NCBI GenBank assembly: GCA_938034905.1
Contig: CALHLF010000018.1
Span: 1-64,000, forward strand
Length of the DNA stretch: 64,000 bases
From: an uncultured bacterium
Lineage (GTDB): Bacteria; Dictyoglomota; Dictyoglomia; Dictyoglomales; Dictyoglomaceae
Direction of reading: 5' to 3'
Shown here: positions 2,496-7,150 of the stretch, piece by piece
How positions within the stretch are numbered: position 1 is the stretch's first letter
Layout: each line of letters starts with the position of its first letter
Program-made: the position numbers and the translations under genes
Notes under the pieces: model-generated
The model's input: only the letters and a program-made list of their open reading frames with translations
What the model was told of the DNA's origin: nothing
Database searches by the model: none

Positions 2496-4060
2496 TTTAT
2501 CATCCTCCCATATATCACTAAATTTTTCACAATTTCTCCAAATATAGGAACCACTGTTTCCCTTGCATAATTTCCTATTTGCGGTTCTTGTAACATAACT
2601 ATAATAGCATAGGTTTTTTCAGGTAAAAATAGATATCCCAAGAAAAAATGGTTTGAGGCATTATTTTTATAGCCATCTTTTACAGAGATCTGTGCAGTTC
2701 CAGTTTTACCTGCAATGTTATATCCTTGCCAATTAAGGCTATTAGCAGTTCCTTCTTTTACCACTTTATATAAATAACTTAATATTTTTTTAGATGTCTC
2801 CTCTGATATTATCTGAGATAATCTTACTGGAGAATTATTAAAAATAATTTTACCCTCCTGATCCTCAATCTTTCTTATCCAATGAAGTTCATTTAACCAA
2901 CCTTTATTAGCTATGCAGGTAAAAGACCATAAAAGCTTAATTGGAGAAAGAGCTATTCCTTGTCCAAAACCAATGGTGCCTCGTGTGAAATGGCTTTCTT
3001 TTAAATTTGATATTAAAAAGTCTTTAGAATTTACGAGTATATCTCCAGGAATTGGCAAGTCTAAATTAAAAAGTCTTATATATTTACTCCAAAGATTAGG
3101 GCTTATCTTTTTGGAAAGTTTGTAAAAATAAATATTACAAGACTCTACAATCGCCTTTTCTAAATTTACTTTTCCATGTCTTTTGACACATTTAATCACA
3201 TGTCCATCTATATTTTCTTCACCTTTACACTCTATTTCTTCCATAGGATCCATCATATTTTCTTCTAAAGCAATAACTGCAGTAAAAATTTTAAAGACAG
3301 AGCCAGGCTCATATATAGCATTTAAAGGATAATAATCCTGCAAATTTTCAAGAATATTCCATATACTTTCTTCTTCTATATCAAAACTTGGCATAACTGC
3401 TAAAGCTAACATTTCTCCTGTACTAACATCAATTATCCCTATCATTCCACCCTTTGCTTTATAACTTTCTATTCCTTTCTTTAAATAATTTCCACATATA
3501 ATCTGCATTTCCTTATCAATGGTAAGATATATATTTTTTCCTTCCCTCAACCACGGATCTAAAATTGCCTCTAATCCATATAGTCCTTGATTATCAACTC
3601 CTACTAATCCCAATAAAGGAGAAGTAGCTAAGGATACAGGATAGGCTCTATATGATTCTTCTACTAAAAATATTTTATTATTGGCTAAATACCTTTTCAC
3701 TCTATTCAACTCGTGAGATGTTAATATTCTTTTAATCCAAACAAAGTTTGAGTTTAAATTTAATTTAGTTTTAAGAATTTCCTTTGAAATATTTAAATCC
3801 TTACTTAATCTTTCTATTAATCTGTTTTTATCTTTTTCTGAAATATTTAGAGGATTTATAGCTAAGGAATTTTTATTTATATTGAATGCTAATTCTTCCC
3901 CTTTTCTATCATAAATAATTCCCCTTTTTACAGAAGCATTTTTATTCGTATATCCTTTAAAGATAACGTTAAATTGAACTTTAAAGAGAAAAAGTTCTAT
4001 AAAAATTAAAGAGAAAATCCAAAATATAACAAAAATTTTTAACCTTCTATAATTTATCAT
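2492..4060 (-). CDS. ftsI: class B penicillin-binding protein, division transpeptidase (FtsI/SpoVD type)
   Basis: This is a membrane-anchored D,D-transpeptidase that cross-links septal peptidoglycan outside the inner membrane. The 522-residue protein has one N-terminal membrane segment (about residues 9-27), then a PBP dimerisation domain with RKGEELAFNINKNSLAI. The transpeptidase domain has the three expected motifs: S-V-F-K near residue 253 (in EPGSVFKIFTAV), S-C-N near residue 305, and KTGTAQ near residue 449. No C-terminal PASTA domains are present, so it resembles plain FtsI more than the PASTA-bearing SpoVD/PBP2x forms. It overlaps ftsL upstream and murE downstream by 4 bases each. FtsI versus SpoVD naming rests on position only. 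Confidence 0.92.
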   Translation of the reverse strand: MINYRRLKIFVIFWIFSLIFIELFLFKVQFNVIFKGYTNKNASVKRGIIYDRKGEELAFNINKNSLAINPLNISEKDKNRLIERLSKDLNISKEILKTKLNLNSNFVWIKRILTSHELNRVKRYLANNKIFLVEESYRAYPVSLATSPLLGLVGVDNQGLYGLEAILDPWLREGKNIYLTIDKEMQIICGNYLKKGIESYKAKGGMIGIIDVSTGEMLALAVMPSFDIEEESIWNILENLQDYYPLNAIYEPGSVFKIFTAVIALEENMMDPMEEIECKGEENIDGHVIKCVKRHGKVNLEKAIVESCNIYFYKLSKKISPNLWSKYIRLFNLDLPIPGDILVNSKDFLISNLKESHFTRGTIGFGQGIALSPIKLLWSFTCIANKGWLNELHWIRKIEDQEGKIIFNNSPVRLSQIISEETSKKILSYLYKVVKEGTANSLNWQGYNIAGKTGTAQISVKDGYKNNASNHFFLGYLFLPEKTYAIIVMLQEPQIGNYARETVVPIFGEIVKNLVIYGRMIN

Positions 4061-4389
4061 GGCTTTTTAAAAGAATAATCTTTATATGAAGAGACAAAAT
4101 AACTTTCTTTTTTTAAGGTGGTTTGAGTTCCATTTTCTATTCTTATTTCTAAAATATCTTGAGGATACCGTAATCCAATTTTTTTGGCTTTATTTTCCAA
4201 TTCGTATAAATTTATCCTTTTTAAAAAAAGACCTTCATAAGCTAATTTTTCTTCTTCTAATTTATTTATCTTTTTCATAAGCTCTTTATTTTCAATTCTT
4301 AATCCTGAGACCTTAATATTTATAAAAATAGCTAAAAAAATTAATAGTAGAGCTACAGTAACAAATCTAAGAACTCCCAACTTTCTCAC
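4057..4389 (-). CDS. ftsL: FtsL-like cell division protein
   Basis: This small bitopic membrane protein of about 110 residues is in the position of ftsL, between rsmH and ftsI. It has a short basic N-terminus, one membrane segment (about residues 8-27), and a heptad-like coiled coil rich in E, K and L, the classic FtsL/DivIC layout. Sequence identity in this family is very low, so the call rests on architecture and context. The start at 4389 is GTG with GAGGG just upstream; a TTG at 4380 is also possible. The gene overlaps the 3' end of rsmH by 23 bases. It would join the divisome in the inner membrane. Confidence 0.75.
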   Translation of the reverse strand: MRKLGVLRFVTVALLLIFLAIFINIKVSGLRIENKELMKKINKLEEEKLAYEGLFLKRINLYELENKAKKIGLRYPQDILEIRIENGTQTTLKKESYFVSSYKDYSFKKP

Positions 4390-5263
4390 CTACCCTCATC
4401 TTTGCACTTCTTGCTCTTGGATTTCTTTCTACTTCTTCTTTTGATGGCTTAAGAATTTTCTTTGTAATTATCTTAATTTTCCCATCTTTCTCACTATTTT
4501 TGAAAAAATTTTTAACAATTCTATCCTCTAAAGAATGATAAGTTAAAATAACAATTCTTGCACCTTCTTTTAAAAAGGGAATAATGCTTTTTAGAGAATC
4601 CTCTAAAATTTCAAGTTCATTATTCACTACTATTCTTAAAGCCTGAAAAATACGAGTTGCAGGATGAATTTTTCTCCTTGGAATATTTTTTTCAATTAGT
4701 GATACAAGATCTCCCACTTTTGAGAAGGGTTTTTTCTTTCTTTCTTCTACTATTAGTTTAGCTACTTTTTTCGAAAAAGGTTCCTCTCCATATTCAAAAA
4801 ATATTCTTTCTAAGGCCCTTTGGGAATAAGAATTAAGAATATCAGATGCTTTGAGTTTTTCATCGATAGAAAATCTCATATCTAATGGTTCATCTAAATT
4901 TTTAAAGGAAAATCCTCTTTTACTTTCTTCAAGTTGAAAAGATGACATCCCCAGGTCATATAGTATCCCATCAACTTTACGTATATTTAACATACCTAAA
5001 ACATTAGGTATTTCATTAAACGCTTTATTTATTAAAATAAATTTAGAACCTAATTTTTTTAAAACATTTTCAGCAATCTCTATACTTTCTGAATCTCTAT
5101 CAAATCCAATTAACAATCCTCTTCCTTCTAATCTTTTGAGAATTTCTTTTGAATGTCCCCCTGTTCCCACAGTAGCATCTATATATATTCCTTCAGGAAT
5201 TATATTAAGATAATCTATAACTTCTTCTAACATAACAGGGATATGAAGTGTCATCCTTTCCAT
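4367..5263 (-). CDS. rsmH: 16S rRNA (cytosine(1402)-N(4))-methyltransferase RsmH
   Basis: RsmH (MraW) methylates N4 of C1402 in the decoding centre of 16S rRNA using S-adenosylmethionine. The 298-residue protein has the family start HIPVMLEEVIDYL, the SAM-binding ATVGTGGHSKEIL (about residues 29-41), and a DGILYDLGMSSFQLEE block. The C-terminal ILTYHSLEDRIVKNFF and NPRARSAKMRV are RsmH hallmarks. The first ATG is at 5263. An internal ATG at 5254 overlaps the mraZ stop as ATGA and is an equally likely start. It is the second gene of the dcw cluster. Confidence 0.95.
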   Translation of the reverse strand: MERMTLHIPVMLEEVIDYLNIIPEGIYIDATVGTGGHSKEILKRLEGRGLLIGFDRDSESIEIAENVLKKLGSKFILINKAFNEIPNVLGMLNIRKVDGILYDLGMSSFQLEESKRGFSFKNLDEPLDMRFSIDEKLKASDILNSYSQRALERIFFEYGEEPFSKKVAKLIVEERKKKPFSKVGDLVSLIEKNIPRRKIHPATRIFQALRIVVNNELEILEDSLKSIIPFLKEGARIVILTYHSLEDRIVKNFFKNSEKDGKIKIITKKILKPSKEEVERNPRARSAKMRVGEKVGSS

Positions 5264-5691
5264 AGTTTTTCTACCTTTTCATTAATTTTCTTCATCTTCT
5301 CTAATAGATCTATCTGTTTCCTAAGATTCTCCCAATTTTGTTTGCTCCATATTTCTATATATGTCCCAATACCAATGATAACAATATCCTTATCTAACTC
5401 AGCATATTCTCTAAGATGTGAGGGAATAAGAATTCTTCCTAATTTATCCACTGTAACCTCTAAGGAACCAGAGAACCAGAATCTTTTTATATTCATAGAA
5501 GCCTCATCGGTGGGAGAAAATTCTAATAAAAACTCAGAAAATTTCTTCCATTCTTCAATAGTATATAAACGAAGACATTTATCAAATCCTCGAGTAATAT
5601 AAAATTTTTCGCCCAGTTCTTGTCTAAAAATATTGGGTATTGTAAGCCTTCCCTTTTCATCAAGAGAATGTAGATATTCCCCTATAAACAT
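5251..5691 (-). CDS. mraZ: transcriptional regulator MraZ
   Basis: MraZ is the DNA-binding autorepressor at the head of dcw clusters, with a double SpoVT/AbrB-like swapped-hairpin fold. About 146 residues are predicted. The first half begins MFIGEYLHSLDEKGRL and the second repeats the pattern with LEVTVDKLGRILIPSHLREY; each has the conserved D-x-x-G-R of the family. I place the start at the ATG at 5691, not at an upstream in-frame ATG at 5706. The 5691 start matches family N-termini and is preceded by GGAAGG at normal spacing. Three GTGG operator repeats lie just upstream, so autoregulation of the whole cluster is likely. Confidence 0.95.
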   Translation of the reverse strand: MFIGEYLHSLDEKGRLTIPNIFRQELGEKFYITRGFDKCLRLYTIEEWKKFSEFLLEFSPTDEASMNIKRFWFSGSLEVTVDKLGRILIPSHLREYAELDKDIVIIGIGTYIEIWSKQNWENLRKQIDLLEKMKKINEKVEKLWKG

Positions 5692-5700
5692 TATAATTCC

Positions 5701-5730
5701 TTCCACCCATTTCCACTTTTTACCACCTTA
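5701..5730 (-). promoter_or_regulatory. MraZ operator: three direct 10-bp repeats
   Basis: On the minus strand this stretch reads as three consecutive 10-base units: TAAGGTGGTA, AAAAGTGGAA and ATGGGTGGAA. The GTGG cores fall at 5723-5726, 5713-5716 and 5703-5706, exactly 10 bases apart, on one face of the helix. Known MraZ sites are three or four direct repeats with a G-rich core at 10-base spacing in the mraZ leader. The block lies between the predicted -10 box and the mraZ start, so bound MraZ would cover the transcription start. Confidence 0.8.
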
Positions 5731-5732
5731 AA

Positions 5733-5761
5733 ATTATATCATAGGATTATAAAAATGAAAA
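5733..5761 (-). promoter_or_regulatory. putative mraZ/dcw promoter
   Basis: On the minus strand a perfect TATAAT lies at 5733-5738. A weak -35-like TTTTCA lies at 5756-5761, with a 17-base spacer. A second TATAAT occurs at 5746-5751. Transcription would start close to the first MraZ repeat. The -35 box overlaps the T-rich tail after rnpB, so rnpB termination and dcw initiation are packed together. Confidence 0.5.
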
Positions 5762-5763
5762 AT

Positions 5764-6138
5764 AAAAAAGAGGAAGTGGACCATAAGCCGAATTCTGTTC
5801 TCTGGGATATACCCAGAGCGACAACCATCTATCTAAGGTGATGATCACTCATCACCTTCAGCGGCCAACCCGAGGGTCAGCGGGCCACCTCAACCCCTCC
5901 TATTTGGCCTTGCACCGGGTGGGGTTTGCCAAGCCAGATGGTCACCCATCTGCTGGTGAGCTCTTACCTCACCTTTTCACCCTTACCCAACTCAAAGAGA
6001 ATTGGGCGGTATCTTTTCTGTGGCACTTTCCTTCAGGTTACCCTGACTGGGCATTACCCAGCACCCTGCCCTCTGGTGTTCGGACTTTCCTCGGAATCTT
6101 TTCCGGATTCCGCGGTTGTCTGGTCCACTTCCTCTTTT
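5764..6138 (-). ncRNA. rnpB: RNase P RNA (catalytic subunit)
   Basis: This is the bacterial RNase P ribozyme, which cleaves tRNA 5' leaders. On the minus strand the 5' part has GAGGAAAGTCCGAACA (conserved region I), followed by AGTGCCACAGAAA. Further on come CCCGGTGCAAGGCCAAATAG and, near the 3' end, ACAGAATTCGGCTTAT, all conserved RNase P elements. The terminal helix P1 is perfect: GAGGAAGTGGACCA at the 5' end pairs with TGGTCCACTTCCTC at the 3' end. A T-rich tract follows the 3' strand and may end transcription. The length of about 375 bases fits a type A RNA. The gene is much G+C-richer than its surroundings. Exact ends are estimated from P1. Confidence 0.96.
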
Positions 6139-6431
6139 CTATCTTTATAAAGGTCTGTCCAAGGAATTACTTCAAAACCTCTAAATCCTTCTTTTCTTAT
6201 TATCTTCCAGTAAGGGACAGAATATTTTATTTTCTTTTCATATCCACATTCACAATAGAGAATTTTTTCTTCAATCCCATCTTCAACAGGGGTTGGAGGT
6301 TTATGTAAAACATATTTCACTAATAATATTTTACCACATTTTGGACAACGGGGAGCAGTAAGATGCTTCAAAATCTTGTCAATAAAATATAAAATTGTAA
6401 TTCCTAGAATTAAAAAAATAATTAAATTCAT
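6054..6431 (-). CDS. small membrane-anchored zinc-ribbon protein, 3' end overlapping rnpB
   Basis: Function not recognised. The predicted 125-residue protein starts MNLIIFLILGITILYFIDK, a single membrane segment. It then carries CPKCGK and, about 30 residues on, CECGYEKK, a likely Cys4 zinc ribbon. I chose the ATG at 6431, which overlaps the preceding gene's stop as ATGA; an upstream ATG at 6443 is in frame. The last 27 or so codons lie inside the predicted RNase P RNA, so the C-terminal tail from about VDQTTAESGKDSEE onward is a translation of rnpB. The zinc ribbon and coupled start argue that the frame is real. The tail may be functionally neutral. Confidence 0.6.
   Translation of the reverse strand: MNLIIFLILGITILYFIDKILKHLTAPRCPKCGKILLVKYVLHKPPTPVEDGIEEKILYCECGYEKKIKYSVPYWKIIRKEGFRGFEVIPWTDLYKDRKEEVDQTTAESGKDSEESPNTRGQGAG
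6144..6149 (-). promoter_or_regulatory. putative rnpB -10 box
   Basis: A minus-strand TATAAA at 6144-6149 lies about 6-8 bases before the predicted 5' end of RNase P RNA, the right distance for a -10 box. No convincing -35 box is seen at 16-18 bases. The hexamer lies inside the coding frame of the upstream zinc-ribbon gene. Confidence 0.4.
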
Positions 6432-7150
6432 GACTCTATCCAAAGAATTCTACCACAATTTGGACAATACACAATCTCCTCTTTTTTCTTTAGTCTATCT
6501 AATATAACTTTTGGAAGAGATAATTTACATCCTTCACATACCTCTTTATTTATTACCTTTGATATTGCTCTATTTGATTTTTGTCTCATAAGATTTTCAA
6601 ATTCTAAAAACTCCTCCATGGGAATTTCTTTTTTATTTTTTTCAATTTCTAAAGATATTAATTCTATTTCTTCTCTTAACTCCTTCAATTCCTTTTCATA
6701 TTTTTCAATTTCTAAAGAAAATTCTTCTTTAAATTTACTTAGCTCCTTTTTATATTCTGAATAGAACTTATTTTTCTCTTCCAATTCCAGGAGAATGTCC
6801 AAAATCTCGTCTTCTAACCTTCTTATTTGACCTTTTAAATTCTCCATTTCCTTTTCTAAATGTAAAGCCTCCTTTGGATTCTTAATAGTTAATGCTTTTT
6901 TCTCTTCGTCTTGATATTTATCCTTCAAACTGCTAACTTTATCTTCTCTTTCCCTCTGATTATCTTTCAAGTTTTTAATATCTTTTTCTAAAACCCTTAT
7001 CTCCTCTTCTTTTAAATTAATAAGTTCAAGCTTTTCCTTTTTAAACTTTTCATATTCTTGCTTCTTATCTATAAAGGCCTTTTCCTTCTCCTTTAAGTTA
7101 ATTACTAAATCTTGAATATTAAGAAGTTTAGGTATATTCTCTTTTTTCAT
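6428..7150 (-). CDS. coiled-coil protein with C-terminal C4 zinc ribbon (COG1579 family)
   Basis: The 240-residue protein is almost entirely a charged K/E-rich coiled coil (about residues 10-190). It ends in a zinc ribbon, CEGCKLSLP followed by CPNCGRIL, with four cysteines in two C-x-x-C pairs. This is the layout of the COG1579 zinc-ribbon family (Chlamydia CT398, Helicobacter HP0958), whose general role is unclear and may be nucleic-acid or protein binding. The start at 7150 is the only good ATG. It probably heads the transcript that continues through the membrane zinc-ribbon gene into rnpB. Confidence 0.82.
   Translation of the reverse strand: MKKENIPKLLNIQDLVINLKEKEKAFIDKKQEYEKFKKEKLELINLKEEEIRVLEKDIKNLKDNQREREDKVSSLKDKYQDEEKKALTIKNPKEALHLEKEMENLKGQIRRLEDEILDILLELEEKNKFYSEYKKELSKFKEEFSLEIEKYEKELKELREEIELISLEIEKNKKEIPMEEFLEFENLMRQKSNRAISKVINKEVCEGCKLSLPKVILDRLKKKEEIVYCPNCGRILWIES

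Follow-up and report, generated by a model that had tools for sequence, protein, structure and literature searches.

In Staphylococcus aureus, the transcript of gpsB (SA1279) runs on through rnpB, and processing then releases the RNA, whose 5' end is matured by RNase J, according to the available part of PMC3937233. The locus described here resembles this system in that rnpB lies directly behind a gene on the same strand. However, the S. aureus reading frame ends before the RNA (processing at +452 to +477, RNA from +485; same portion of PMC3937233), whereas the coding sequence (CDS) in our case ends inside it. A separate reading frame, SA1278, lies wholly within the S. aureus rnpB and may not be translated, again according to that portion of the paper. 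Unidirectional overlaps that arise through the loss of an upstream stop codon are described in the accessible excerpt of Fonseca et al. (2013, PMC3887535), where a protein gene is the one overlapped, while here it is a ribozyme gene. By ribosome profiling, rnpB of Sinorhizobium meliloti is mostly untranslated, as stated in the available extract of PMC10117765. In the open-licence PMC literature, judged largely from the openings of abstracts, no report was found of a preceding CDS that terminates within rnpB.

The window is a stretch of 64,000 nucleotides from an uncultured, heat-loving member of the Dictyoglomaceae. Its minus strand encodes a class A RNase P RNA, located at 5769–6131 (-) by the Rfam boundaries, and the match to RF00010 spans the full length of the model (1–367) and scores 318.3 bits, where the gathering score is 100. 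The 5' strand of the P1 helix occupies 6122–6138 (-), about 7 nt past the Rfam end, and its 3' strand 5766–5782 (-), while the P3 hairpin is located at 6093–6111 (-). Both the P1 5' strand and P3 lie within the CDS of the preceding gene, and the P3 hairpins of the relatives differ in length by 3 or 6 nt only. P1 consists of 17 pairs, seven of which show two-sided changes, with 99.0% of the cells paired, and P3 consists of six pairs, with a two-sided change in one. Together, the two helices are 99.3% paired, as compared to 39.1–62.4% when slid. The covariation of P1 reaches the codon that precedes the Rfam 5' end, and the amino acid encoded there varies between lysine, arginine and glutamate. 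Since this covariation crosses the Rfam boundary, the 5' end of rnpB is likely to be at about 6137–6138, which matches the start near 6138 proposed in the earlier note. The RNA is real throughout the overlap.

The frame that enters this RNA encodes a small membrane zinc-ribbon protein. The open reading frame extends over 6054–6443 (-), with a TTG start, 129 residues and a TAA at 6054–6056. The likelier start is the ATG at 6431, which gives a CDS of 125 residues at 6054–6431 (-), with the TTG at 6443 also open. The protein is composed of a hydrophobic N-terminal helix, a zinc-ribbon-like CPKC...CEC core and an acidic tail, the CPKC and CEC motifs being known from the sequence alone. No Pfam model exceeded its cut-off for the gene at 6054–6443 (the best was DUF7479, 15.4 bits vs 27), and the protein matched nothing in NCBIfam at an E-value of 0.01 or in a Foldseek search of the PDB at 0.001. 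The stop codon TAA at 6054–6056 (-) is the UAA of a hairpin loop of the RNase P RNA, as seen from the Rfam structure line and from the relatives. The hairpin itself comes from the structure line, and we take it to be P8, and its loop L8.

The overlap has a length of 78 nt if rnpB is taken to begin at 6131, as in Rfam, and of about 82–85 nt with the P1 extension (to columns 9–12 of alignment A2, about 6135–6138), so that the same-strand entry of some 84 bases reported earlier was indeed seen. Inside the Rfam boundaries, the zinc-ribbon frame contributes 25 sense codons and the stop, to which the extension of P1 adds about 7 nt. The shared stretch at 6054–6138 (-) comprises the 5' strand of P1, P3, the conserved region GAGGAAAGTCCG (6081–6092) and the 5' side of P8; the tail is thus a translation of the 5' end of the ribozyme including its conserved region, as had been claimed. 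In a modest AlphaFold2 model (mean pLDDT 70.9, six sequences), the protein is ordered up to residue 101, and the pLDDT is below 50 at residues 102–129. As rnpB starts at residue 105, the low-pLDDT part is nearly exactly the rnpB-encoded part, and this tail is predicted to be disordered.

The order on the minus strand is the CT398-like gene, the zinc-ribbon gene, rnpB and mraZ, and there is no intergenic gap between the zinc-ribbon gene and rnpB. The upstream CT398-like coiled-coil/zinc-ribbon gene (6428–7150, -) matches Zn_ribbon_9 with 47.5 bits (cut-off 29.1), whereas CT398_CC (18.6 vs 27 bits) and the CdsZ equivalog (44.9 vs 275) stay below their cut-offs. Its TGA overlaps the zinc-ribbon ATG as ATGA at 6428–6431. 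Downstream of rnpB, mraZ (5251–5706, -; MraZ, 121.7 bits) is the first gene of an mraZ-rsmH-ftsL-ftsI-like run. The mraZ, rsmH and ftsL-like frames at 4057–5706 overlap mutually by 13 and 23 nt, and overlaps are therefore frequent in that stretch. Of the promoter-like sites in the region, the strongest is TTTTCA-17-TATAAT, which has an extended TG. It is found between rnpB and mraZ at 5733–5761 (-), and is probably the promoter of the mraZ cluster. At four rnpB loci from other bacteria (L041, L149, L157 and L158), a CT398-like gene, an RNase HI gene and rnpB are consecutive, and the zinc-ribbon gene of the Dictyoglomaceae sits where these loci have RNase HI. The Pfam model RVT_3 has no match in the window's genome.

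The zinc-ribbon gene is present in six of the seven Dictyoglomaceae genomes; the seventh assembly, which is 72% complete, has neither the gene nor a match to rnpB. All six homologues overlap rnpB in frame and share the identical L8 UAA stop, and the overlap is retained across two genera. The possibility that relatives end before rnpB, which the earlier note had raised against itself, is ruled out: none of the six stops earlier, and in each the frame stays open as far as this shared UAA. The overlap is genuine and old. Outside the family, a first search for homologues returned 117 pattern stretches, none of which was confirmed, and a second returned 317 stretches, of which the one confirmed was a Dictyoglomaceae contig. 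A search of 386 genomes gave seven matches, the seventh (G124) covering just 45 positions inside a frame of 397 residues and not being confirmed, and the viral contigs searched contained no homologue. With homologues outside the Dictyoglomaceae unconfirmed, no outgroup lacking the overlap was found.

The same arrangement was sought at 152 class A rnpB loci, six from the Dictyoglomaceae and 146 from other bacteria, 144 of the latter with at least 300 nt of upstream sequence. Candidate frames had at least 60 residues upstream of rnpB and at least 12 nt of overlap with it. Thirty such frames from outside the Dictyoglomaceae were scanned against Pfam, two further ones (that of L142 and the second one at L119) being left out, and L045 and L053 were not counted as overlaps. 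In at least 15 of the 144 loci, which are the better-scoring share of the matches listed and not a random bacterial sample, a Pfam-supported upstream gene ends 12–107 nt inside rnpB. The RNA 5' ends used for this were taken from the Rfam model, and the shortest overlaps (12–16 nt) may shift by a few bases. These 15 loci span 11 families and involve RNase HI (11), RsfS (2), CT398 (1) and EamA (1). A zinc-ribbon-like upstream gene at L122, without a Pfam match, was excluded from the count. Eight of the 15 (L015, L020, L029, L065, L075, L119, L143 and L158) overlap by 71–107 nt, and six of these eight stop at the L8 UAA. Among them, L119 (G250) is an independent case, a locus of 72% GC at which the gene of an EamA transporter overlaps rnpB by 83 nt and stops at the L8 UAA.

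The eleven RNase HI loci (L018, L020, L029, L065, L083, L086, L104, L130, L143, L157 and L158) are like the present one in that a same-strand CDS stops in the 5' third of rnpB, and three of them (L020, L065 and L143) use the same L8 UAA. They differ in the gene involved and in the length of the overlap (12–107 nt), and some of their relatives stop in P3 or before rnpB. The RsfS genes of family f37 (L015, L163, L164 and L165) enter rnpB in the same frame and end at the same L8 UAA after 71–74 nt, although they encode a ribosome silencing factor rather than a zinc-ribbon protein. In f37, all four genomes whose rnpB is complete keep the overlap, its length changing once, by 3 nt; L166, which is cut at a contig end, was left out.

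Homologues of RNase HI lie upstream of rnpB in 50 of the 152 loci, with a stop-to-rnpB spacing of -107 to +261 and with the stop at least 3 nt inside rnpB in 16 of the 50, and CT398 homologues in 31 of the 152, six of them Dictyoglomaceae. By these counts, the overlap represents the tail end of a tight distribution of spacings. In family f22, the RNase HI frame reaches L8 in two genomes and stops within P3 in two others, and three species of genus g77 have their RNase HI stop 3, 16 or 80 nt into rnpB; the tails are thus labile, which fits neutrality. The arrangement is recurrent, and therefore less special than the earlier note implied. RNase P RNA matches were found piecemeal in G049 (C112 and C63) and G007:C71, covering model positions 20–222, 105–212 and 223–303, and these pieces may reflect fragmented assembly or an unusual RNA. 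Three single-contig assemblies that are 99–100% complete (G248, G375 and G266) gave no match to RF00010.

We favor, with a probability of roughly 0.7, an explanation by tight packing of the CT398-like gene, the zinc-ribbon gene and rnpB. On this view, the UAA of the ribozyme stands in for a stop that was lost or never there, the tail is a by-product, and the RNA is obtained by processing and/or from a promoter. The compact same-strand run would leave the zinc-ribbon gene no space for a private stop before rnpB. Going by the sequence, ribosomes on the zinc-ribbon message would have to reach the UAA, because an earlier stop is absent; they would read on for 26–28 codons of RNase P RNA sequence before being released at L8, yielding a zinc-ribbon protein with a disordered acidic tail. 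This tail would be a mostly neutral by-product, fixed by the constraint on the RNA. Mature RNase P RNA would come from transcripts free of ribosomes in this stretch, either cut out of the operon transcript by nucleases or started at a candidate promoter within the upstream gene, or both. The overlap is probably a tolerated by-product.

One competing account, to which we give somewhat less than an even chance, rivals only the processing step of the packing explanation: most transcription of rnpB may start at a promoter of its own within the zinc-ribbon gene, making the overlap transcriptionally irrelevant. Own promoters are usual for rnpB, and AT-rich, TATA-like bases lie immediately upstream of it here. 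However, the rnpB -10 box that had been claimed within the gene did not withstand comparison. Where the window has TATAAA, the five relatives have TATAAG, TATAAG, TATGAG, TATACG and TATATG, and the scan of 6131–6300 (-) returned no pair of promoter elements fitting the consensus, which may not be that of Dictyoglomus. The divergent hexamers and the empty scan together rule out a conserved -10 box. The synonymous sites before rnpB also speak against an embedded promoter, as they are not unusually conserved, with mean pairwise differences of 0.36 at codons 90–99 and 0.60 at codons 100–109 as compared to 0.35–0.51 earlier in the gene. With no consensus promoter and ordinary synonymous sites, processing of an operon transcript is a good candidate, and the window's genome encodes both RNase Y (711.3 bits, cut-off 454.35) and RNase J (617.1 bits, cut-off 400). 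In S. aureus, a weak own promoter and read-through have both been proposed, according to the available part of PMC3937233.

A functional tail is an unlikely alternative. On this account, the 25–28 residues would serve a purpose such as contact with the membrane surface or with RNA, and the DNA would be selected both as protein and as RNA. Before rnpB, the variable columns of the family alignment fall on codon positions 1, 2 and 3 as 36, 17 and 73 (88 columns each); there the zinc-ribbon gene is under purifying selection and plainly coding. Within the overlap, the corresponding numbers are 2, 4 and 6 (24 each), and the bias is not significant. Moreover, 12 of the 72 columns of the overlap are variable, as are 52 of 267 ungapped columns in the remaining rnpB, an equal rate. 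As the overlap is as variable as the rest of rnpB and without codon bias, the RNA constraint alone can explain its conservation. The nonsynonymous changes in the tail (Q/R, T/A, S/L and R/K/T) occur at variable RNA sites, and this, the predicted disorder and the stops within P3 in two of the four genomes of f22 all argue against selection on the tail. Thus, of the dual constraint proposed earlier, the RNA side is shown by the covariation of P1 and P3, and the coding side is not supported.

Some observations nevertheless favor a selected tail. The frame stays open in all six genomes across the variable P3 loop, and every change in P3 length among the Dictyoglomaceae is a multiple of 3, with 36, 39 or 42 nt from the 5' end to the conserved region. 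The P3 length differences in the RsfS family are multiples of 3 as well. However, 12 of 31 unequal same-family pairs elsewhere differ by multiples of 3, so that two such events are unremarkable; with a base rate this high, the P3 indels were dropped as proof of coding. In the P1 5' strand within rnpB (columns 13–25), three of four third positions change and none of the nine others does, a post hoc bias with a hand-computed Fisher value of about 0.014, or about 0.036 when the preceding codon is included. This bias hints at some coding constraint on EEVD.

Judging from the layout of the locus, translation may conflict with the folding of the ribozyme. It is nonetheless quite improbable that the two are coupled, such that ribosomes moving through its 5' third prevent or slow the folding of the RNA and operon translation tunes the level of RNase P. 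A ribosome would cross P1, P3 and the conserved region before L8, and the ATGA joins the zinc-ribbon gene to its upstream neighbor, as such coupling would suit. On the other hand, no conserved regulatory feature was found, and unrelated genes form the same overlap elsewhere, with variation within a genus. We hold it just as doubtful that termination at the L8 UAA is general in tight gene-rnpB operons, with upstream translation and RNase P RNA maturation competing or being coordinated and the frame being kept for that reason. An open frame created by an assembly or sequencing error is refuted by the agreement of six separate genomes, two of them single-contig assemblies.

For annotation, the packing of these genes carries a warning, in that genes trimmed or dropped because they overlap an RNA gene may be real. 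Likewise, a tail of the kind EESPxxxxQxAG is RNase P RNA in translation and not a protein motif. If it is true that translation crosses the nascent RNase P RNA, the locus would offer a natural test of ribozyme folding on a translated transcript. Over the lifetime of a bacterial family, the same DNA can serve both as the 5' third of an essential ribozyme and as the 3' end of a protein gene, and this has happened repeatedly, with different genes.
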